A stretch of 64,000 bases of DNA from Aphrocallistes beatrix. Taxonomy: Eukaryota; Porifera; Hexactinellida; Sceptrulophora; Aphrocallistidae. Made by a program: the position numbers and the translations under genes. Where the stretch lies: contig OY725495.1 of NCBI GenBank assembly GCA_963281255.1, positions 2,108,001-2,172,000 on the forward strand, given 5' to 3'. Below are positions 3,441-56,749 of the stretch, piece after piece. The notes under the pieces are model-generated. The model searched no databases. It saw only the letters and a program-made list of their open reading frames with translations, and was not told the origin of the DNA. Position 1 is the first letter of the stretch; every line of letters begins with the position of its first letter.

Positions 3441-4832
3441 TTTAGGATACCGCCCTCGAAAAACTTTGCCTGAGTAAAAACAAATAGCAAATATTTTTAT
3501 TGTTAATTTCATTGTATTGCTGAGCAGTCTACCACCTAATCGTACTAGTTGAACGGTATTTATCTTGATTTTTATGAGTCAACCCCTAAAGTTTAGCGTT
3601 CCTAAAAGTTGTAAATTATTGGAGGTTTTTCAACGCATTCATCAATTAGTTTTTTACTTAATTAATATTGTTTAATTATATGGACTTCAAAATTGTTTTA
3701 GCTCCTTTGGAGATTCTATAACACAAATATTTAGAAGAAAGATCAAGAAGTACAATAAAAATAGCTCTAAAAGGGAATTTATTTCTTTAATGCTCAGGAA
3801 ATGGCCGGTTTGATATCAAATATTTAGCGACAATTGTATCAGAAAAAAAATTCTGATCATTTTCTTCAAAAAATTATTCAGATACGATCATTTGTTAGTG
3901 AGTTATCGCCTATTATCGGCAAAGTTCGGGCATAATACCTCTCTATGGTCCCGAAATAGGCCGATGTCATATCTTAAGGATTATTTAAGATATATAATAT
4001 ATTATAATCATAAATGAAAGTATATATATGTGATAATATATCGGTTCCTCAAACATCTCTTTGTCAAAAAATAAATATTTCTCGACTTATCATTGACCTT
4101 ATTGTAATACAAATTCTATGGAGAACTTTGAATATATTAGAAACTGTCGAATCTAATCAAGATAAATGAGTTCAAGTATTGCTATTATGCAAAACAATCA
4201 ATACAATTGTCGTTAATAATGTGTCCAGAAGATTGGAGCACTTTCATAATTATTTTAGAATTTCTGGCCTTAAACCACCAGATTCGGTCAAAACCCATCC
4301 ATTTAGGGTCCAAATTGAGATATCTCTATCTCTGTAAATATGAGCCCAAATTCTTAGTTCTCAATTCATAATATACTTTTTACAACGGTATATATATATA
4401 TATATGATTCAATGATAATTATTGCACTACACCAATGGAATGTTATGTTTTAGATCTCTATCATGTGATTACTTATCATTTTTCGAAAATCTTAACTTGG
4501 AAAATAAAAGTCGTAGACTCTCGTTCTAACTTCCTAATATACTTTTTAGCAGCTCTTTATTCATTCTAAACTAATGGATTATACTTTGTATCGATAGGAA
4601 TATGAATTATTATCCACAATTTGCTCAAAATATTGGGGGTTAGGGGCCTCAAAGATTTTTGTGGATTATTAGTGCACATTTGTTATTTTCCCAAATTTGG
4701 TTGGAATATATCAAATCATGCGGTTTCGAATGCGTAAGTATTTCTATAAGGAGATACGTGCCCACGTTTAACATCCCTTATAGCTCTCCTTTTATCGTAT
4801 GCTGTAAGCCAAATCGCGGGTGGAATCCTTAA
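3441..4832 (+). mobile_element. Family A element, internally shortened copy
   Basis: It starts TTTAGGATACCGCCCTCG at 3441 and ends GGAATCCTTAA at 4832, an inverted but decayed match of the start. At about 1.39 kb it is shorter than the 1.93 kb of uninterrupted copies, so internal sequence has been lost. Interior landmarks match other A copies (GAGTCAACCCCTAAAGTTTA, CTAAAAGTCGTAGACT-type stretch, GCTGTAAGCCAAATC near the right end). No coding frame. Confidence 0.65.
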
Positions 4833-23520: not shown

Positions 23521-24498
23521 TTATTGTATTTTCCAAAACTTGGCGCCTATGATTGTATTGATTGTTTAGCACACTTGCCAAATTGGATAAAAATTTATTC
23601 AAAGTTCTCCATTAGAATTTGTATTACAGTAAAGTCAATCATAAGTCGAGAAATATTTTTTGACAAAGGGATGTTTGAGGAACCTATATATTATTGTGTA
23701 TATCCTTTCATTCAAGATTTCGGCCTCTCTCAGGAAATATAGAGGTTTTATGTACGAACTCTATCTAAAAATACCATAACTCACGAACCAATGGTCGGAT
23801 CTGAGCATTACTTTTTCAAAAATGATCAGAACTTTATTTCTGATGTGTTCATCGCTAGATATCTGCTATTCAACCAGCCTTTTCCGAGCATTATAGAAAG
23901 GAACTCTCTTTTAGATATATTTTGAAGGGAATTTAATGACCTTCTTTCTACATATGTGCATTATATAATCTTCAAAGGCGCCAAAACAATGTTTGATGTC
24001 CATTAGGGTGATCTGAGAACAATTTTTTCCCTTGTACCCTTTATTATCGGTTGCCAAAAGTTGCCACTATGTAAACAACGTTAGTATAAAATAAAACCTG
24101 ATTACTATCAACTGCAGATCGCGAATTTTTCTTAAAGTTTTGATAGATATACCAAAATTCGGACGAAAAGTCCCTTTCCCCAAAATTGTTTCAAACAACT
24201 GTTGTGGTTGATATTTACTCAGAGTTGGCTTCACATCATTAAATTGAGTGGTACAAATGGAAATTTACCTATTAAATATCAATGGTATATAACGTGATCA
24301 ATTGACCATGTTTCTATATTAGTGTTTAGAGCTATGTAATTTTTATAATATTGGTTCCCAAGATATTATTCAAAATATATTGTCGAATGTCGATTAATAG
24401 CTTATTATAAGCTTAGAAATAATGGCTTAACAATCAATAAATACACTTTTCGAATTGAATGTGGGGAAATCTATCCTGTTACTTAGTGTGTTTAGAAT

Positions 24499-25371
24499 TT
24501 AACCATGCCTTTCATCATGACCACAAATTGTTGATGAAACCTGCGAAACTAATTGAACAATCCTTTCCACTGGCTGTGTATGGCATGGGTATTGGTAAAT
24601 ATTATTGAGAGGAATTTCAATAGCATTTAAGATATCCTGCTCACTCAAATTTTGTAATAAAGGAGGTGATGTTGGATCAACTGAATTCCAATCAACCATC
24701 AAGAGATAGTTGTCTGCGGAAAAGTTAATTATTGGAATTCTGAAGATTCTGAGGGAAATATTTTCCATTGATAGCTTCCTTACATCTAAAATCTTCTTGA
24801 CGACAATTCCTCTGTTTATTTCTTCATCAAATATAGCCGCTAACAATATGTTTTCCACATGTGCCCAATAACGGTTATTCTGGAGAACAGAATATACAAT
24901 GTTTCTGCATTCAGGAGAGAGATTACGGGCGAGAGATATTAATTTGAAAAAGTTTTTCGCACCTTGAGTGCATATCGAATGCTGTTTTATGCAGAACCAA
25001 CCTGGAATATAAAATGCAATAATAAAATAAACCAAACTTTGAGATCCTCTGATGGAGATCTTTTTGAGATGAATAAACGAAAGGATCCTATTCGCTTTGG
25101 TTAGCCATCTAGCATGATGAAGCTCACCTGGTAATTTGTTGACAATACCACAGTTCTAGAGGTAAGATGTTCTTTTCTGAATCGACATGCCCATTTGATA
25201 AAGGTATTGTTGATCGCTGTTGAGTTGAAAATATACATCTTTAGAAATTTCATCAATAAAACCATTCATTGTTTGAAATTTTGATATTGCACTAACATAA
25301 TATAGAAACATGGTCAATTGATCAAAATATATTACCATCGATATTTGGAATAAGCATAGCCTACTATACAT
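24499..25371 (-). pseudogene. Uncharacterised invertebrate protein family with P-C-H-T-Q-x-V-E-R motif; fossil copy
   Basis: Recognisable blocks in order on the minus strand: LNSDQQYLYQMG, PGELHHARWLTKANRILSF, YIPGWFCIKQ, FFKLISLARNLSPECRNIV, YWAHVENILLAAIFDEEI, FRIPIINFSADNYLLMVDW and YPCHTQPVERIVQLVSQVSS near the end. I recall this combination (H-A-R-W-L-T, A-H-x-E-N-I-L-L-A, P-C-H-T-Q-x-V-E-R) from multi-copy predicted proteins of many invertebrates with no assigned function; this is memory, not a search. Family members are about twice as long, so the copy is N-terminally truncated. It looks broken, with about one break. It is the only coding sequence inside the inverted-end element, which suggests the family travels on mobile DNA. 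What the protein does is unknown. Confidence 0.55.
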
Positions 25372-25384
25372 AAGGCCTCACAAC

Positions 25385-25949
25385 CAGGGTTGGCAGGTTT
25401 TGTCCACTTGGACAAAACCTAGTGGTTTTAACTAGGTTAAAACCGTCCCGTTCAAAACCTCTTGAGTGGACAAAACTGGATAAAACTGAACAAAACCTTT
25501 TGTCCAAGTTTTGTTCAGGTTTTGTCCAAGTTTTGTCCAGGTTTTGTCCAAGTTTTGTCCAAGTTTTGTCCAGGTTTTATCCAAGTTTTGTCCAGGTTTT
25601 GTCCATGTTTTATCCAAGTTTTGTCCAGGTTTTATCCAAATTTTGTCCAGGTTTTGTCCAGGTTTTATCCAAGTTTTATCCAGGTTTTGTCCAAGTGTTG
25701 TTCGTGTCTTCCATGATAAATAGAATACAAAATATAGTTATGGAAATAAACAGGAGTTAGCAAGAAAATCCATTCATTGTCCTCGCTCTCTTTCCATCCT
25801 AAACTGTTTCGTACCCACTGCAATGATTTACAGTTTCCATTAGGTTTTGTCCAGTTTTGTCCAGTTTTGGCCGGTTTTAACCGGTTAAAACCAGGTTTTG
25901 TCCACTGCCCTGTCCAAAACCTGTTTTGGACGGACAAAACCCAACCCTG
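25385..25949. mobile_element. hAT-type MITE built around an 11-bp minisatellite
   Basis: Inverted ends CAGGGTTGGCAGGTTTTGTC and GACAAAACCCAACCCTG-like, flanked by perfect CTCACAAC duplications (25377-25384, 25950-25957). This interrupts the outer arm of C copy 3: removing it restores the C palindrome. The subterminal phrase GGTTTTGTCC is also the unit of the internal tandem array. Confidence 0.88.
25499..25697 (+). repeat. Minisatellite, 11-bp unit GTTTTGTCCAA/G, about 18 units
   Basis: About 18 head-to-tail units of GTTTTGTCCA followed by A or G, with occasional T-to-A changes giving GTTTTATCCA. Because 11 is not a multiple of 3, all frames stay open and give artificial FVQVLSRFCPS-like repeats; these are not genes. 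Confidence 0.9.
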
Positions 25950-27418
25950 CTCACAACTGATTGTGGATTTTGGACCAGGGATGCGGAGGAAGACCGTTGA
26001 ACTAATGCATGAGCTGCCTTAAATCATTTACAAAGCACAATAGAGCTTAGGAATATATTATCAGCATATATAAATATGGTGTCAAAGTACCCATATCCAT
26101 TGTAAAAATTTGATTAGTCACCATATAATAGGTTATATTTGTGACAAATTTGGTGATTTTCAGAGGCCGTTTAGGGGCACTTCTAAGTGTTTTTACTGTA
26201 AAATTTTTCGCATAGAACTGAGATGTGAATGGGTTAATACGAAAAATTTGGAATTTTTTCATGGAATGTTGGTACATTCCAGTGTTGCTATGGAAACGTG
26301 TTTTGGTCAGTTGGCGTTATATCTTGAAAACTGCAATGGCTACACATTCAAATGTAATTCCATTTGATAGCGAATATACTACTTCCTATTAAGTGATAAT
26401 ATAATTTCGACCTCTAAATTCAATAGTTTATGAGATATTCGACAATGTACCATATTGGTCACATTTGATAATTTGTCGATTATCTCATAAACCTTTGAAT
26501 TTAGAGGTTGAAATTATATTATCACTTAATAGGAAGTAGTATATTTCCAATCAAATGGAATTACATTTAAATGTCTAGCTCTTGTGGTTTTCAAGATATG
26601 ACCCAAACTGACCAAAACACGTTTCCATAGCAAAACTGGAATGTACCAACATTCCATGAAAAAATTCCAAAATTTTCGTATTAACCCATTCATATCTCAG
26701 TTCTATGCGAAAAATTTTACAGTAAAACACTTAGAAGTGCCCCTAAACGGCCTCTGAAAATCACCAAATTTGTCACAAATATAACCTATTATATGGTGAC
26801 TAATCAAATTTTTAACAATGGATATGGGTACTTTGACACCATATTTATATATGCTGATAATATATTCCTAAGCTCTATTGTGCTTTGTAAATGATTTAAG
26901 GCAGCTCATGCATTAGTTCAACGGTCTTCCTCCGCATCCGTGGTCCAAAATCCACAATCAGTTGTGAGGCCTTATGTATAGTAGGATATGGTATAAGGTA
27001 AATTTCCATTTGTACCACTTCAATTTAATGATGTTAAGTCAATGATGAGTAAATATCAATCACAACAATTGTTTGAAACAATTTTAGAAAAAGGGACTTT
27101 TCGTCCGAATTCTGGTATTTCTATAAAAATTTTAAAATTCGCGACCAGTAGTTAGATAGTAATCAGGTTATATTTTAAACTAACGTTATTTACAAACATA
27201 GTGGCAACATTTGACAACCGATAATAAAGGATGCAGGGGAAAAAACTGTTTTCAGATCAGCCTAATGTCCATAATATTTAAAAAATGCCAAATAAATAAA
27301 AATCAACTGATTGGTTCCTCAAAAACCCTTAATAATTTTCAATTTTTAGTATCGCGTAACTTCAGCAGGCAAACTCAGAAAAATCAAAATAGCTACCTTC
27401 TAACTAGATTGATTAGAT

Positions 27419-31787: not shown

Positions 31788-33908
31788 TAGTAATATATTG
31801 TATACATTAAACTCAATTAATTATTAAAAGGTTAAAAAAAATTTTGAGCTTCATTTCAACACTGAGGGGTGGGACGCGAAGACTGCAAAATTTAGAAAGT
31901 GGGTCGTGGTCTAAAAAAGGTTGAAAACCTCTGAGTTAGATCATCGATTATGAATGAATTTGAAAAGTTTCTAAAGGATTGTAAGCATATTGTGTCCGAT
32001 TTCTTTCTTCTATAAATGACCAATTTTTTTAAAAAAATCTATCTGTTGAATGATTTCAATTGTTAATGCAGTTTTGCAGATAACTCTGCGGTTCAAATCC
32101 TCACTGAAAAAATTAAATGAATCGGTTGAAAAAGTCAAAAGTTAGCTATTATAGGAAAGGCCAATCTTAATAAAAATTGAAAAATTGTTGGAGGTTTTTG
32201 ACTCATTTAACAATTAGTTTTTAATATATTTGATATTTTTTAATGATATGGACCTTATCATTGTTTTGGCACCTTTGGAGATTATGTAACACAAAGATTT
32301 AAAAGAATGGGCAAATAAAATCCAAACAAAATAGCTCTAAAGGGAGTTCATTAATGCTCGAGAAATCGCAAGTTTGATCTCAGATATTTAGCGATCACTG
32401 GGTCAGAAATAAAATTCTGATCGTTTTAAAAAAAATTTGATCGGATCCGACCATTTGTTCTTGAGATATCGCTTATTATAGGTCAAGTTCGGGCATAATA
32501 TCTCTCTATGGTCCCGAAAGAGGGCGATGCATATCTTAACTATTGAAGATATATAATATATTATATTCTTAAATAAAAGGATATATGCAAAATATATAGG
32601 TTCCTCGAACATTGCTTTGTCAAAAAATAAAAAATTCTCGACTTATCATTTATTTAATTGTAATATAAATTCTATGGGGAACTTTGAATATATGTATTAG
32701 AAAATGGCGAATCTAATCATTAAATATTTGTCCAAATGTGGCTATTATGCTGAATAATTAATACAATGGTCGTTAATAATGTGTACAGAATAGTTGGAGA
32801 ACTTTTAATAATTATTTTGAAAGTTCTGGCCTTGGACATTGCAGATTCGGTAAAAAACCCCCATTTAGGGTTCAAAAATAGATATCTCTCTATCTCTGTA
32901 AATATAAGTCCAAATTCTTAGTTCTCACTTCCTAATATACTTTTTATGAGTGAACATATATGATTCTTTGATAATAATTCCACTACACCCTATGGAATGT
33001 TAAGTTTTAGATTTTTGTCACATGATGACGTAGCATTTTTCAAAAATCCTAGCTTGGAAACTAAAAGTCGTTGACTTTCGCTCTAACTTCCTAATATACT
33101 TTTTGGAAGCTCTTTAACCATTCTAAACTGATAGATTATACTTCGTAGTGCTACGAATATTAATTATTATTCACAATTATCCCAAAACATTCGGGGTTAG
33201 GACTTCAAGGAAATTTGTGGATTTTCAGGGTACTCTTGCTATTTTTCGTGAATATTTGGTTCAAATATACCTAAATCAGCAGTATAAATGAGAATAAATG
33301 TCTGTGGGATGCATTTGTTCATTATTAATAACTCATTCTAAATTCTTCTTAACATCTAAACTTAAAATCTCTATATCTCGGGACTTTAATATTTCAAAAT
33401 TGACCGTATTTACAGAATTTTGACTCAAAATTGGTTTGAGCTAGAGGTTTGAAAATTTCAAGAGTTGTTCCATATTATTTGGCGATGAGCGTAGGACCAC
33501 CATTTTTTCGATATCTTCTAACTTGGAGATTTTATTCCTGATTCCCCAAAAAAACACACATTTTTCGCAATTAACAATTTTTGTCATTTTAACTATCTTT
33601 TGGTCCTATGTAGTTGCATATATGATAGACTATCTATTATTCGATTTTGGAAGCATTTGATTCCTTCGTATGTCCTAAATTATTGCTTGAGTGCCCGAAT
33701 TTCTACCATTAAGTTGTGCTAGCGAAAACGAAAAAAACAGACTTTGAGCACTGTATCTCAAAAACTAGAAATGAGAATCAAAAACGGTTTGGAAAGTGCC
33801 AGTATTTCTTGATGGATATACCTCCCCACGCTTAACATCTCTTATAGCTCTACTTTAATCGTATGCTGTAAGCCAAATCATATGTTTTTTCGAGAGCGGT
33901 ATCCTTAA

Positions 33909-34872: not shown

Positions 34873-36801
34873 TTAAGGATACCGCCCTCGAAAAACATCG
34901 CCTGATATAAAAAAAATGGTAAATTTTTTTATTGTTAAATCCATCGGATTATTGAGTAGTCTACCATCTAATCGTATTTGTTGGACGGTATTTATTTTGA
35001 TATTCTAGAACTGAGCACCTAAAGCTCAGTCGTAATAAAAATCGGAAAGTTATTCGTGGTTTTGCGGCGCATTCATCAATTATTTTCTAACTTATCTGAT
35101 ATTTTTTCAATTATATGAACCTCAAAATGGTTTTGGCCCCATTAAATATTATAAAACAGATGAATATAGAAAAAGAAGCACATAAAATCCAATCAAAAAT
35201 ATCTTTATGAGGGACTTCATTTCTAAAATGCTCTGGAAATGGCCGTTGTGATATTAGTTATTGGGTATAGAAAAAAATTCTGAACATTTTAAAAATAATT
35301 TGTTCAGATCCGACCATTAGTTCGTAAGTTATAGTATATTGTAGGTAAAGTTCGGACATCAAACCTCTCTATGGCCCCGAAAGTGCTCGATGTCAATGCT
35401 TAAAAACTAATGAAGATATATAATCTATTATCATCTTAAATGAAAGGATATATATGATAATATATAGGTTCCTCAAACATCTCTTTGTCAAAAAGTAAAT
35501 ATTCTTGACTTATCATCGATTTTATTGTAATACAAATTCTATGGAGAACTGTGAAAATATTAGAAAATGGCGAATCTTGTCATGAAATAAGTTCAGAAAA
35601 GTGCTATTATACTCAAAAAACAATGCAATAGTCACTAGCAATTTTTACAGAAATTTTGAAGCACTCAACATGATTATTTTGGAAGTTCAAAGCATTTATC
35701 TCCAAAATTCGGTCAAGGCCCCCCATTTATGGTCCAAAACCAGATTCCTCCATATCTCGGGAAATATATACCCAAATTCTTAGCTCTCAATTCCTAATAT
35801 ACTTTTCAAGACGGTATATATCTGATTCTTAAATAATAAGTATACTACATGGAATGGAATGGTAAGTTTTAAATTTTTATCACGTGATGACGTAGCATTT
35901 TTCGAAAATCCTAACTTGAAAACTAAAAGTCGTAGACTCTCACTCTAACTTCCTAATATACTTTTTAGTAGCTCTTTATTCACTCTAAGCCGATGAATTA
36001 TACTTTGTAGTGGTAGGAATATGAACAATATTTCCTAATTGGTTCAAAATATTCGGGGTTAGATGCCTCAAGGTAATTTGTGAATTTTCAGTATAATTTT
36101 GCTATTTTCACCATAATCAGTTGGAATACATCTAATTCATTAGTATACATGCGATTAAATGCCCATGGATGCTTTTATTTATCGTTAATAGCTCATTTTA
36201 CATCGTTCTTGACATCAAAACTTCAAATCTCGATATCTCGGGACTTTAAAATTCCAAAATTGACCGTCTTTCAAAAATTTACCTCAAAATTGCATTGTTG
36301 TAGAGGTTTGAAAATTTCAGTTGTTCCATATCATTAGGTGATGAGCGTAGGACCACTCGATTTTCGATAACTTATAAATTTGTGATATTTTTGCTGATTT
36401 CCATAGAAAATCGGGCTTTTTTCGCCGTTTTTGGGCTCTTTTTATTATTACACCGATAAATTTTACAATTTTTCTAATTTTAACTTTCTTCTGGTCCTAT
36501 GAAGTGGCAAATATGATAGACTATCTATGCATAAATTTTTGAAGCATTTGATCCAAACATGTGCTTTAAAAAAATCACAGAGTGGAGGAGGGCTTACCAT
36601 TAAGATGTGCTAGTGAAAACGAAAAAAAAAACACTTTGAGACGCTATAACTAAAAAACTAGAAATGCGAACCAAAAACTGTTTGGCATGTCTCAATATTT
36701 TTTAATTGCACTACCTGCCCACGCTTAACATCTTATCTATCTCTATTCTTGATATATGCTGTAAGCCAAACCTATGGATTTTTCACGGGCGGTATCCTTA
36801 A
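34873..36801 (+). mobile_element. Family A element, complete uninterrupted copy
   Basis: TTAAGGATACCGCCCTCG at 34873 and CGGGCGGTATCCTTAA ending at 36801 bound 1929 bp, the same length as the copy at 52367-54296, so this is the full size. Inverted ends are about 20 bp; left subterminal sequence AAAACATCGCCTG differs from the AACTTGCCTGGCG of other copies, marking a subfamily. It has no frame above 85 codons on either strand and must be mobilised in trans. Confidence 0.85.
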
Positions 36802-47838: not shown

Positions 47839-49120
47839 TTAAGGATACCGCCCTCGAAAAACATCGCCTGGCGTAAAAAAATGGTAAAATTTTTATTGCT
47901 AATTCCATTGTAATAGTGAGTGGTCTACCATCTAATCGTACTTGTTAGACGGTGTTTATTTTGATTTTTAGCATAAAGTTTAGTGTTAATAAAAATTGAA
48001 AAATTATTGGTGGTTTTTTCAGCGCATTCACCAATTAGTTTCTTACTTATTTGAATATTTATTAATAATATGGACCTCAAAATTGTTTTGGCCCCTTTAG
48101 AGATTATAAAACACAAAAATTTAGAAAAAAACCATATAGAATCCAATCAAAATAGCTCTGTGAGGAAGTTCATTTTAAAATTGCACGCGGGAAATAGCCT
48201 GAAGTTAGCTATTGTATCTAAAATAGAATTCTGATCATTTTATTAAAAAATTGTTCAGATCCAACCATTTGTTCGTAAGTCATCGTATATTATAGGTAAA
48301 GTAAGGACATTAAAATACTCTGGTTCCGAAAGAGGTTGATGTCAAATCTTAAGGATACCGCCCTCAAAAAACTTGCCTGGCGTAAAAATAACGGCAAATT
48401 TTTTATACCTAATTTCATTGTATTACTGATCGGTCTACCATCTGATAGCACTATTTGGAAGGTATTTTTTTAAAATTTTTGTGAGATAACCCTCTGAAGT
48501 TTAGCGTTAATAAAAATTAAAAAATTATTGGAGGTTTTTAACATGTTTACCAATTAGTTTTTGACTTATTTAATATTTTTTTAATGATATGGACCTTAAC
48601 ATTGTTTTGGCACCTTTGGAGATTATATAACACAAAGATTTAGAAGAATGGGCAAATAAAATCCAAACAAAATAGCTCTATAAGGGAGTTCATTTATATA
48701 ATGCACGGGAAATCGCAAGTTTGATCTCAGATATTTAGCGATCACTGGGTCAGAAATAAAATTCTGATCGTTTCAAAAAGAAATTTGTTCGGATCCGACC
48801 ATTTGTTCTTGAGATATCGCTTATTATAGGTAAAGTTCGGGCATAATATCCCTCTAAGGGCCCGAAAGAGGTCGATGTCATATCTTAAAAACTATAGTAG
48901 ATATATAATATATTATATCCTTAAATAAAAAGATATATGCAAAATATATAGGTTCCTCGAACATTCCTTTGTCAAAAAATCAATAATTCTCGACTTATCA
49001 TTGATTTAATTGTATTACAAATTCTATGAAGAACTTTGAATCTATTAGAAAATGGAGAATCTAATCATTAAATATGTGTCCCAATTTAGCTATTATGCTA
49101 AATAATGAATACAATTGTCG

Positions 49121-52366: not shown

Positions 52367-54296
52367 TTAAGGCCACCGCACTCGAAAAATCTTGCCTGGC
52401 GTAAAAAAAAACAGCAAAATGTTTTATTGCTAATTTCATTATATTACCAATCGGTCTACCATCTGATAGCACTATTTGGACGGCATTTTCTTTTATTTTT
52501 TGCGAAATAACCCCCTAAAGTTTAGCGTTAATAAAAATTGAAAAATTATTAGAGGATTTTAACTCATTTACCAATTAGTTTTTAACTTATTTGATATTTT
52601 TTTAATGATATGAACCTTAACATTGTTTTAGCACCTTTGGAGATTATAAAACACAAAGATTTAAAAGAATGGGCAAATAAAATCCAAACAAAATAGCTCT
52701 ATAAGGGAGTTCATTTATATAATCCTCGGGAAATCGCAAGTTTGATCTCAGATATTTAGCGATCCCTGGGTCAGAAATAAAATTCTGATCGTTTCAAATA
52801 AAGATTTGTTCAGATCCGACCATTTGTTCTTGGGATATCGCATATTATAGGTAAGGTTCGGTCATAATATCCCTCTAAAGTCCCGAAAGTGGCTGATGTC
52901 ATATCTTAAAAACTATTGTAGATATATAATATATTATATCCTTAAATAAAAGGATATATGGGAAAATATATAGGTTCCTCGACCATTCCTTTGTCAAAAA
53001 TAAATAATTCTCGACTTATCATTGATTTAATTGTAATACAAATTCTATGGAGAACTTTGAATCTATTAGAAAATGGCGAATCTAATCATTAAATATGTGT
53101 CCAAATTTAGCTATTATGGTAAATAGTGAATACAATTGCCGATAATAATATGTACAGAAAAATTGGAGAACTATTGATGATTATTTTGAAAGTTCTGGCC
53201 TTGGACCTCGCAGATTCGGTCAAAAACCCCCATTTAGGGTCCAAAAAGAGATATCTCTATCTTTATAAATACAAGTCCAAATTCTTAGTTCTCACTTCCT
53301 AATATACTTTTTATGAGTGTACATATATGATTCTTTGATAATAATTGCACTACACCCTATGGAATGTTAAGTTTTAAATTTTTGTCAGATAATGACGTAG
53401 CATTTTTCGAAAATCCTAACTTCGAAACTAAAAGTCGTAGACTTTCGCTCTAACTTCCTAATATACTTTTTGGAAGCTTTTTATTTATTCTAAACTGATA
53501 GATTATACTTCGCAGTGCCAAGAATATGAAATATTATCTACAATTATCTCAAAATATTCGGATTTAGGGGCCTCAAGGAAATTTGTGGATTTTCAGGGTA
53601 CTTTTGCTATTTTTGGTAAATATTTGGTTTTAATATACCTAAATCAGCAGTATGGATGCGAATAAATGTATATGGATGCTTATGTGCATTATTAATAACT
53701 CATTTTACATTCTTCTTAACACCTAAACTTAAAATCTCTATATCTCGGGACTTTAAAATTTCAAAATTGACCGTCTTTACAGAATTATTTCTCAAATTTG
53801 GTTTGAGATAGAAGTTTGAAAATTTCAAGAGTTGTTTCATATCATTAGGCGATGAACGTAGGACCACCATTTTTTGGATATATTCTAACTCGGTGATTTT
53901 ATTCATGATTTCCCAAAAAAAACGTTTTTTGGCCCTTTTTTTTCGGACACCGATAAAATTTACAATATTTGTCATTTTAACTTTCTTCTGGTCCTATGAA
54001 GTTGCAAATATGGTAGACTATCTATGATTCGATTTTGGAAACGTTTGATTCCTTGGTATGTCCTAAACAATTCATTGAGTGCCTAAATATCTACCATTAA
54101 GATGTGCTAGCGGAAAATTTAAAAAACAGACTTTGAGACACTGTATCTCAAAATCTAGAAATGAAAATCAAAAACGGTTTGGAATGTGCCAGTATTTCTT
54201 GATGGAGATGCCTCCCCACGCTTAACATCTCTTATAGCTCTACTTTCATCGTATGCTGTAATGCAAATCATGTTTTTTCGACGGCGGTATCCATAA
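52367..54296 (+). mobile_element. Family A element, third layer, uninterrupted
   Basis: TTAA 52367-52370 then GGCCACCGCACTCG; right end CGACGGCGGTATCC then ATAA (one base from TTAA). 1.93 kb. Outside, TTTTTGGTCATT and CTTTCTTCTGATCCCC join to the standard A sequence. Confidence 0.85.
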
Positions 54297-55200: not shown

Positions 55201-56749
55201 TTAAGGATACCGCCCTCAAAAACCTTGCCTGGCGTAAAAAATACCAGCAAAACTTTTTATTGCTAATTTCATTGTAATACTGATCGGTCTACCATCTGAT
55301 AGCACTAATTGGACGGTATTTATTTTGATTTTTGTGAGTTAACCCCATAAAGTTTAGCGTTAATAAAAATTGAAAGATTATTGGAGGTTTTTGACTCATT
55401 TACCAAATAGTTTTTAACTTATTTGATTTTTTTTTGATGATATGGACCTTAACATTGTTTTGGCACCTTTGGAGATTATATAACGCAAAGATTTAAAAGA
55501 ATGGGCAAATAAAATCCAAACAAAATAGCTCTATAAGTTCATTTATATAATGCTCGGGAAATCGCAAGTTTGATGGGTCAGAAATAAAATTCTGATCGTT
55601 TCAAAAAAAAAAGTTTGTTCGGATCCGACCATTTGTTCTTGAGATATCGCTTATTATAGGTAAAGTTCGGGCATAATATCTCTCTATGGTCCCGAAAGAA
55701 GCCGATGTCATATCTTAATTATTGAAGATATATAATCTATTATATTCTTAATTAAATGGATATACTGTAAACTGGGGCGACTTTGGCCCTAGGAGGTGAC
55801 TTTGCCCCACAATAGAAATTTTAATAAATATACTCAAACTTAGAAATATTACGATTTAAATGTCTTTGGATATATTGAGAGTTTCATTCAACATATTAGC
55901 AATGTGATTACATTGATTCATAAGTTTGAGTATATTTTATTAAAATTGCTATTGTGGGACAAAGTCACCTCTAAGGTCCAAAGTCGCCCCAGTTTACGGT
56001 ATGCGAAAATATATAGGTTCCACGAACATTCTTTGTTAAAAAATATATAATTCTCGACTTATCATTGATTTAAATGTAATTGAAATTCAATGGAGAACTT
56101 TGAATATATTAGAAAATGGCGAATCTAATCATTAAATATGTGTCCAAATGTGGCTATTATGCTAAATAATGAATACAATTGTCGTTAATAATGTGTACAG
56201 AATAATAGGAGAATTTATAATTATTTTGAAAGTTCTGGCCTTGGACCTCGCAGATTCGATCAAAAACCCCCATTTAGGGTCCAAAGAGAGATATCTCTCT
56301 ATCTCTGTAAATATAAGCCCGAATTCTTAGTTCACACTTCCTAATATTCTTTTTATGAGAGTACATATATGATTCTTTGATAATAATTGCACTACACCCT
56401 ATGGAATGTTAAGTTTTAGATTTTTGTCATATGATGACGTAGCATTTTTCGAAAATCCTAACTTGGAAACTAAAAGTCGTAGACTTTCGCACTAACTTCC
56501 TAATATACTTTTCGGACGCTCTTAACCATTCTAAACTGATAGATTATACTTCGTAATGTTAGGAATATTAATTATTATTCACAATTGTCCCAAACATTCG
56601 GGGTTAGGGGCCTCAAGGAAATTTGTAGATTTTCAGGGTACTCCTGCTATTTTTTGTAAATATTTGGTTCAAATATACCTAAATCAGCAGTATAAATGAG
56701 AATAAATTTCTGTGAATGCTTTTGTTGATTATTAATAACACATTCTACA
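55201..56749 (+). mobile_element. Family A element inserted in the outer layer, right part lost
   Basis: TTAAGGATACCGCCCTC at 55201 through ATAACACATTCTACA at 56749, where the D array begins. Internal TA-flanked MITE at 55765-55999. Confidence 0.8.
55765..55999. mobile_element. TA-flanked palindromic MITE
   Basis: CTGTAAACTGGGGCGACTTT and AAAGTCGCCCCAGTTTACGG as ends, TA at 55763-55764 and 56000-56001. Arms of about 90 bases also share GAAATTTTAATAAATATACTC-type sequence, leaving a centre of about 50 bases. Confidence 0.85.

Follow-up and report, generated by a model that had tools for sequence, protein, structure and literature searches.

Our analysis of a 64,000-nucleotide stretch of the genome of the hexactinellid sponge Aphrocallistes beatrix (C9:2108001-2172000; the window, by which we mean this whole stretch) suggests that the element at positions 24004-27264 is very probably the copy of a cut-and-paste transposon that has undergone internal deletion and is dead, and that the open reading frame (ORF) remnant inside it is the C-terminal part of the element's own transposase, from a divergent hAT-related lineage with long terminal inverted repeats (TIRs). 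We observe long TIRs, target duplications of 8 bp and an empty site, and the ORF is associated with five TIR families; the hAT-related lineage looks to have spread in the A. beatrix genome as five or more sub-families, each with long inverted ends. All TIR and ORF searches were run at the scale of the A. beatrix assembly (100.5 Mb, 28 contigs), and thus cover one genome. An earlier note on this DNA had proposed that copies of the ORF are spread by, or encode part of, a transposon of an undescribed type; as to the type this was only half right, as the element looks hAT-related.

Anatomy of the element in the window

The element begins with TAGGGTGATCTGA and ends with TCAGATCAGCCTA (GCCTA at 27264). 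Its inverted arms (23996-24072/27196-27272, 24070-24109/27155-27194, 24132-24247/27020-27135 and 24247-24270/26996-27019) are 87-100% complementary, which bears out the inverted ends described before, and its left TIR has 27 matches in the genome. These ends had been put at about 325 bp; we found that the TIR of the window copy measures 267-269 bp, and that about 325 bp is the length of the left-end stretch held in common with sister copies. Similarly, the TGTCCA taken earlier for a 6-bp target duplication is only the middle of the actual 8-bp duplication, ATGTCCAT. When the flanks are joined with a single copy of this duplication, alignments that span the junction match further repeats in the window at about 70% identity (e.g. 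4138-3536 at 71% and 49041-48451 at 70.5%), and the element is therefore an insertion into that repeat, whose restoration upon removal of the element had been correctly noted.

On the minus strand the ORF is open from 24499 to 25155 and continues in the same frame to 25377 past one stop, carrying all three of the motif blocks by which it was recognized (P-C-H-T-Q-x-V-E-R, H-A-R-W-L-T and A-H-x-E-N-I-L-L-A). It is not the sole content of the element, as had been supposed, since a fold-back element and a nested small hAT-type element sit beside it. The window copy has nothing that corresponds to residues 1 to ~458 of the longer relative L038, and so is without the two conserved aspartates and C-x2-H; it also has an in-frame stop, and is therefore dead and cannot move itself. 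At the place where the gene has lost its N-terminal part lies an inverted fragment of the TIR, a sign of internal rearrangement or deletion.

Inverted-end families and their target duplications

Searching with the ORF gave at least 120 genomic stretches, which merge into 74 loci. Besides the 27 TIR matches of the window element (family 1), we found TIR families with 24 (family 2, L043/L044), 25 (family 3, L069/L038/L073), 2 (family 4, L042) and 8 matches (family 5, L030), and across families the TIRs are 141-437 bp long. When adjacent TIR matches of opposite orientation were matched up by eye from the hit lists, the ORF was enclosed by 28 of 30 pairs over the five families (9/9, 10/10, 5/7, 1/1 and 3/3 in families 1 to 5, respectively), or by 23/25 if one founder pair per family is left out. 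The pairs are spaced 1.1-7.7 kb apart, with the exception of one family-2 pair at 21 kb. In a scripted count with families 1-4, 23 of the 74 loci were flanked by TIR matches at both ends, 10 at a single end and 41 at neither. With family 5 added, three more loci count as two-sided and one more as one-sided; the chance expectation of a TIR match within 6 kb is ~0.009 per locus. Because the script merged two neighbouring loci on C19 and did not extend to the distant side of the 21-kb pair, it scored two full family-2 elements as one-sided, and some of the other one-sided loci may be mere neighbours of TIRs. These counts support the view that a DNA transposon spreads the ORF copies and is in part encoded by them.

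The ends of hAT elements read Y-A-R-N-G, and in our families the ends are mostly TARNG. Among the family-1 ends shown, 12/15 fit the hAT pattern (the misfits being L012, L015 and the right end in the window, TAGGC); family 2 has mostly TAGGG or TAGAG, family 3 TAGGG and family 5 TAAGG/TAGGG, and the ends of family 4 show no clean fit. In family 3 (L074-L083) 4/5 left flanks end in GG and 3/4 right flanks begin with AATT, with the flanks of L069 not fitting, a pattern that hints at asymmetric true ends.

Over all families, 8-bp duplications were present in 13 of the 21 TIR pairs read at both edges. In family 1 only 4/9 pairs were readable at both edges, and all four have duplications (two perfect, two with one mismatch). 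In family 2 they are found in 8/10 pairs: the script identified five perfect ones, and reading by eye added two perfect ones and one at 7/8. In the 21-kb pair the duplication ATACACAT is identical on both sides. The one family-5 pair read, out of three, has a 7/8 duplication by eye. We observe that 9/11 duplications combine a T in second place with an A in seventh, and that two beyond these eleven, ATACACAT and GTACCCAT/CTACCCAT, also fit, similar to the nTnnnnAn target preference of Hermes that is given in a passage of PMC10368747.

Family 2 is highly uniform, with ends 91-98% identical to the L043 end. Its copies L043 and L044 have in common a deletion of ~22 residues right after C-x2-H that is not found in L034 and L067, and in the genome search the matches of several further copies are interrupted at this point. 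Considering that the family is so uniform, and mostly has 8-bp duplications despite this deletion, it probably spread in trans, with transposase supplied by another copy.

The encoded protein and its remote relatives

In the relative L038 a single frame, interrupted by five stops, runs for at least 738 codons, its first codon being the edge of the locus; residues ~559-590 do not align with relatives and are probably off frame. Rows from other families are 22-46% identical to the L038 protein. In our alignment A3, in which conservation is given relative to those rows that have a residue at the position and several rows are pieces of one locus, we found that the D of FDG (12/12) and the D of DG-x-x-x-N (18/18) are invariant, and that the C-x2-H motif (C 18/20, H 17/20), the R-W-L-T block (R 20/20, W 17/20), the E of H-P-E-N (19/20) and the E of V-E-R (17/18) are highly conserved. 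As judged from these sequences, the FDG, DG-x-x-x-N, C-x2-H, RW and VER blocks would fit the expectation for a DDE transposase, and the E of V-E-R presumably corresponds to the hAT catalytic E. The suggestion that the conserved His and Glu of the P-C-H-x-Q-x-V-E-R motif could be catalytic gains partial support for the Glu, which in the core model falls in a late helix where the third acid of a DDE enzyme would be expected, and none for the conserved His, which has no known role. Near the N-terminus, which was read in few copies, 6/9 rows spanning the region have a C-x-C ... C-x-C cluster.

An enzyme of this kind would have at least ~740 residues, with the C-x-C ... C-x-C cluster of several copies at its N-terminus followed by an RNase H fold that a long helical insertion interrupts. 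It would bind the TIRs, use the D of FDG, the D of DG-x-x-x-N and the E of VER in excision of the element, and insert the element into nTnnnnAn-like target sites with a stagger of 8 bp, in the manner of Hermes-type hAT transposases.

Additional support comes from profile comparison. In hhalign, A3 matched a profile built from 16 DUF4371-type hAT proteins of the A. beatrix genome with E = 1.6e-4 (score 43.7), with D1, D2 and C-x2-H in register and the R-W pair in register in the loose alignment only. Leaving out each hAT protein in turn gave E-values of 3.7e-5 to 5.4e-4 in 16/16 runs, and neither 60 column-shuffled (best score 22.2) nor 60 block-shuffled hAT profiles (best score 38.3) scored as high as the real one (0/60 in both). 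A reversed hAT profile gave E = 0.27, and a P-type profile from six proteins of the same genome gave E = 0.62 with no motif register. At the level of sequence profiles, these comparisons statistically support remote homology of the D...D...C-x2-H region to hAT transposases. They also support the remote RNase H-like fold for which the earlier note had proposed to search, and the structure models do so weakly.

Both models, one of the whole frame (model 1) and one of the core (model 2), run from long strands through a helix to a strand that precedes D2 and another that precedes C-x2-H; a long stretch of helices follows and, late in the chain, the helix with V-E-R (466-483 of the core model). This predicted order agrees with what an RNase H transposase that carries an insertion domain should show; domains of that type are described in sections of PMC7776569. 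Foldseek with model 1 gave the ISCth4 transposase (1.6e-4) and the P element transposase (6pe2, 1.7e-4), followed by many PRP8 RNase H domains above 1e-3, and with model 2 PRP8 RNase H domains came out on top at E 0.02 and worse.

Searches of general databases returned little. Among 36 aligned pieces of the ORF family there was no match to any Pfam hAT model at E <= 10, to PF05699 (the hAT C-terminal dimerisation domain) or to any other Pfam transposase family, and none to P-type, integrase, polymerase or capsid models. Scattered weak matches to zf-piccolo (E = 4.7e-4, 1/36 pieces), HEAT (E = 0.033, 4/36) and Cnd1_N (E = 0.012) were not taken as meaningful. A sequence search of the PDB gave nothing below E 0.8, one query against viral contigs found no relative, and the viral structure library gave nothing below E 0.001. 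Five motif strings gave no paper in a full-text search, and when we looked in the open-licence literature, which does not extend to Repbase, for an undescribed hAT-like or 8-bp superfamily, none of the titles and abstracts listed described the ORF family.

Placement of the lineage and neighbouring features

We place the lineage as divergent and hAT-related. Similar to Hermes, Ac and the DUF4371-type elements it combines 8-bp duplications of nTnnnnAn bias and mostly TARNG ends with a protein in which D, D, C-x2-H and RW follow in that order and which has the remote profile match at E = 1.6e-4. It would work like hAT, but we do not find the short TIRs (10-25 bp in the portion of PMC3942097 that deals with hAT ends, versus 141-437 bp here), a Pfam hAT model match or a BED zinc finger, for which the ORF family, its N-terminus read in few copies, has no Pfam match and where several copies have the C-x-C ... 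C-x-C cluster.

The length of the TIRs is one of several observations that speak against this placement. Block-shuffled profiles reach E = 5.2e-4, so that much of the hAT score comes from single motif blocks, and a smaller hAT profile, of six proteins, reached just E = 0.083, for the stretch around D2 and C-x2-H. Model 1 is of low confidence (mean predicted local distance difference test score, pLDDT, 53; predicted template-modelling score, pTM, 0.39) and model 2 is weak (mean pLDDT 63, pTM 0.59), with no PDB match below E 0.001 for model 2; the 50 Foldseek matches listed for each model do not include Hermes. No intact frame was found among the copies read. Duplications are missing from 2/10 family-2 pairs, from the one family-4 pair, located in a TA microsatellite, and from the TAGGG edge in all five family-3 pairs, a count that excludes the pair L082/L083 (right end unreadable) and the pair C10:1713520/1716549; in 2/4 family-3 pairs tested a 6-7-bp word is common to both sides within nine bases of the edge, which we did not count as duplication. 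Moreover, TIR families 2-5 were discovered by starting from diverged ORF loci, and 37 of the 74 loci have no TIR match of any of the five families.

This last figure would also fit a chance capture, in which an unrelated transposon took up a fragment of a host gene and the ORF has no connection with transposition, as would the presence of only a C-terminal part in the window copy. Considering that the ORF lies inside 28/30 pairs of five TIR families even though rows from other families are only 22-46% identical to L038, and that the catalytic-like residues are kept, we regard such a capture, which the earlier note had offered as its alternative, as very improbable. That note had also named a stripped derivative of a Maverick/Polinton, for which the long TIRs and the apparent 6-bp duplication could speak. 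On the strength of the 8-bp duplications we reject this reading together with the 6-bp one; moreover the pairs are 1.1-7.7 kb apart (one 21 kb), and no integrase, polymerase or capsid match was seen in a search that covered the ORF pieces and not other genes of the longer pairs, so that we give it next to no credence.

A place in the P superfamily, or in an IS256/MULE-like group, rather than near hAT is unlikely, although it has a better claim than a capture. Passages of PMC7776569 give 8-bp duplications for the P element superfamily, the P element transposase has, as predicted here, an RNase H fold with an insertion (6pe2), and ISCth4 and P element transposases top the Foldseek list of model 1. 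However, that model is of low confidence, there is no sequence-profile similarity or P-type Pfam match (E = 0.62 without motif register, versus 1.6e-4 for hAT), and the 12 PF21787 matches on contig C9, compared by eye and on that contig only, overlap none of its seven ORF loci. IS3EU/GingerRoot elements resemble ours in their TA...TA termini, as given in an excerpt of PMC10045372, but usually have 6-bp duplications versus 8 bp here, and the ORF family has no integrase-type Pfam match. KDZ (Zisupton/Kyakuja/Dileera) transposases have cysteine clusters. Zisupton has 8-bp duplications according to a passage of PMC12730594, but the ORF family has no KDZ Pfam match; nor did the A. beatrix genome, in a weak test to which control genomes were equally silent.

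More serious, and still the less likely reading, is that of a separate and unrecognised superfamily of animal DNA transposons, a sister group of hAT that would be marked by long TIRs, by 8-bp duplications, by another kind of N-terminal region with the cysteine cluster, and by a fourth conserved acid in H-P-E-N-I-L-L; if so, many 'uncharacterised proteins' of invertebrates would be its copies. On the hAT-related placement that we prefer, the hAT-related group would widen to long-TIR elements with a different N-terminal region. A protein family for which no Pfam model fits here gets its function, that of a transposase, from genomic anatomy. If the family is multi-copy and unannotated in many invertebrates, as the earlier note states, their gene sets contain many transposase copies labelled as unknown.

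Table 1. Coordinates of the transposon and its parts in the window
Feature	Position	Strand	Remark
Target site duplication, left copy, 8 bp ATGTCCAT	23996-24003		
Left TIR	24004-24270	+	similarity to TIR of sister copies extends to ~24330
Transposase remnant	24439-25281	-	matches L038 residues 459-738; in-frame stop 25156-25158
Inverted internal TIR fragment	25294-25346	-	
Fold-back (palindromic) element inside transposon	25355-26990		
Small hAT-type non-autonomous element CAGGGTTGG...CCAACCCTG	25385-25949		nested in fold-back element
Right TIR	26996-27264	-	
Target site duplication, right copy, 8 bp ATGTCCAT	27265-27272		

The A. beatrix genome is rich in transposases, with at least 131 matches of the P-type PF21787 and at least 142 of hAT DUF4371, many of them with long open frames. 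Inverted repeats at L070/L071 that we had first read as TIRs were dropped as an abundant repeat; this ~515-bp repeat (L070:125-639) has 4185 candidate places in the genome, some adjoining in tandem or inverted. The host repeat into which the element inserted likewise forms a family with many ~70% copies in the window (e.g. 3536-4138, 32168-32693, 35033-35561, 48451-49041, 52515-53062 and 55305-55705). Within the transposon, the fold-back element is near-perfect, with arms up to 100% complementary around a 7-base loop, and is split by the nested small hAT-type element, which is flanked by its own 8-bp duplication CTCACAAC (25377-25384 and 25950-25957) and holds an 11-bp minisatellite of ~20 GTTTTGTCCAG-like units.

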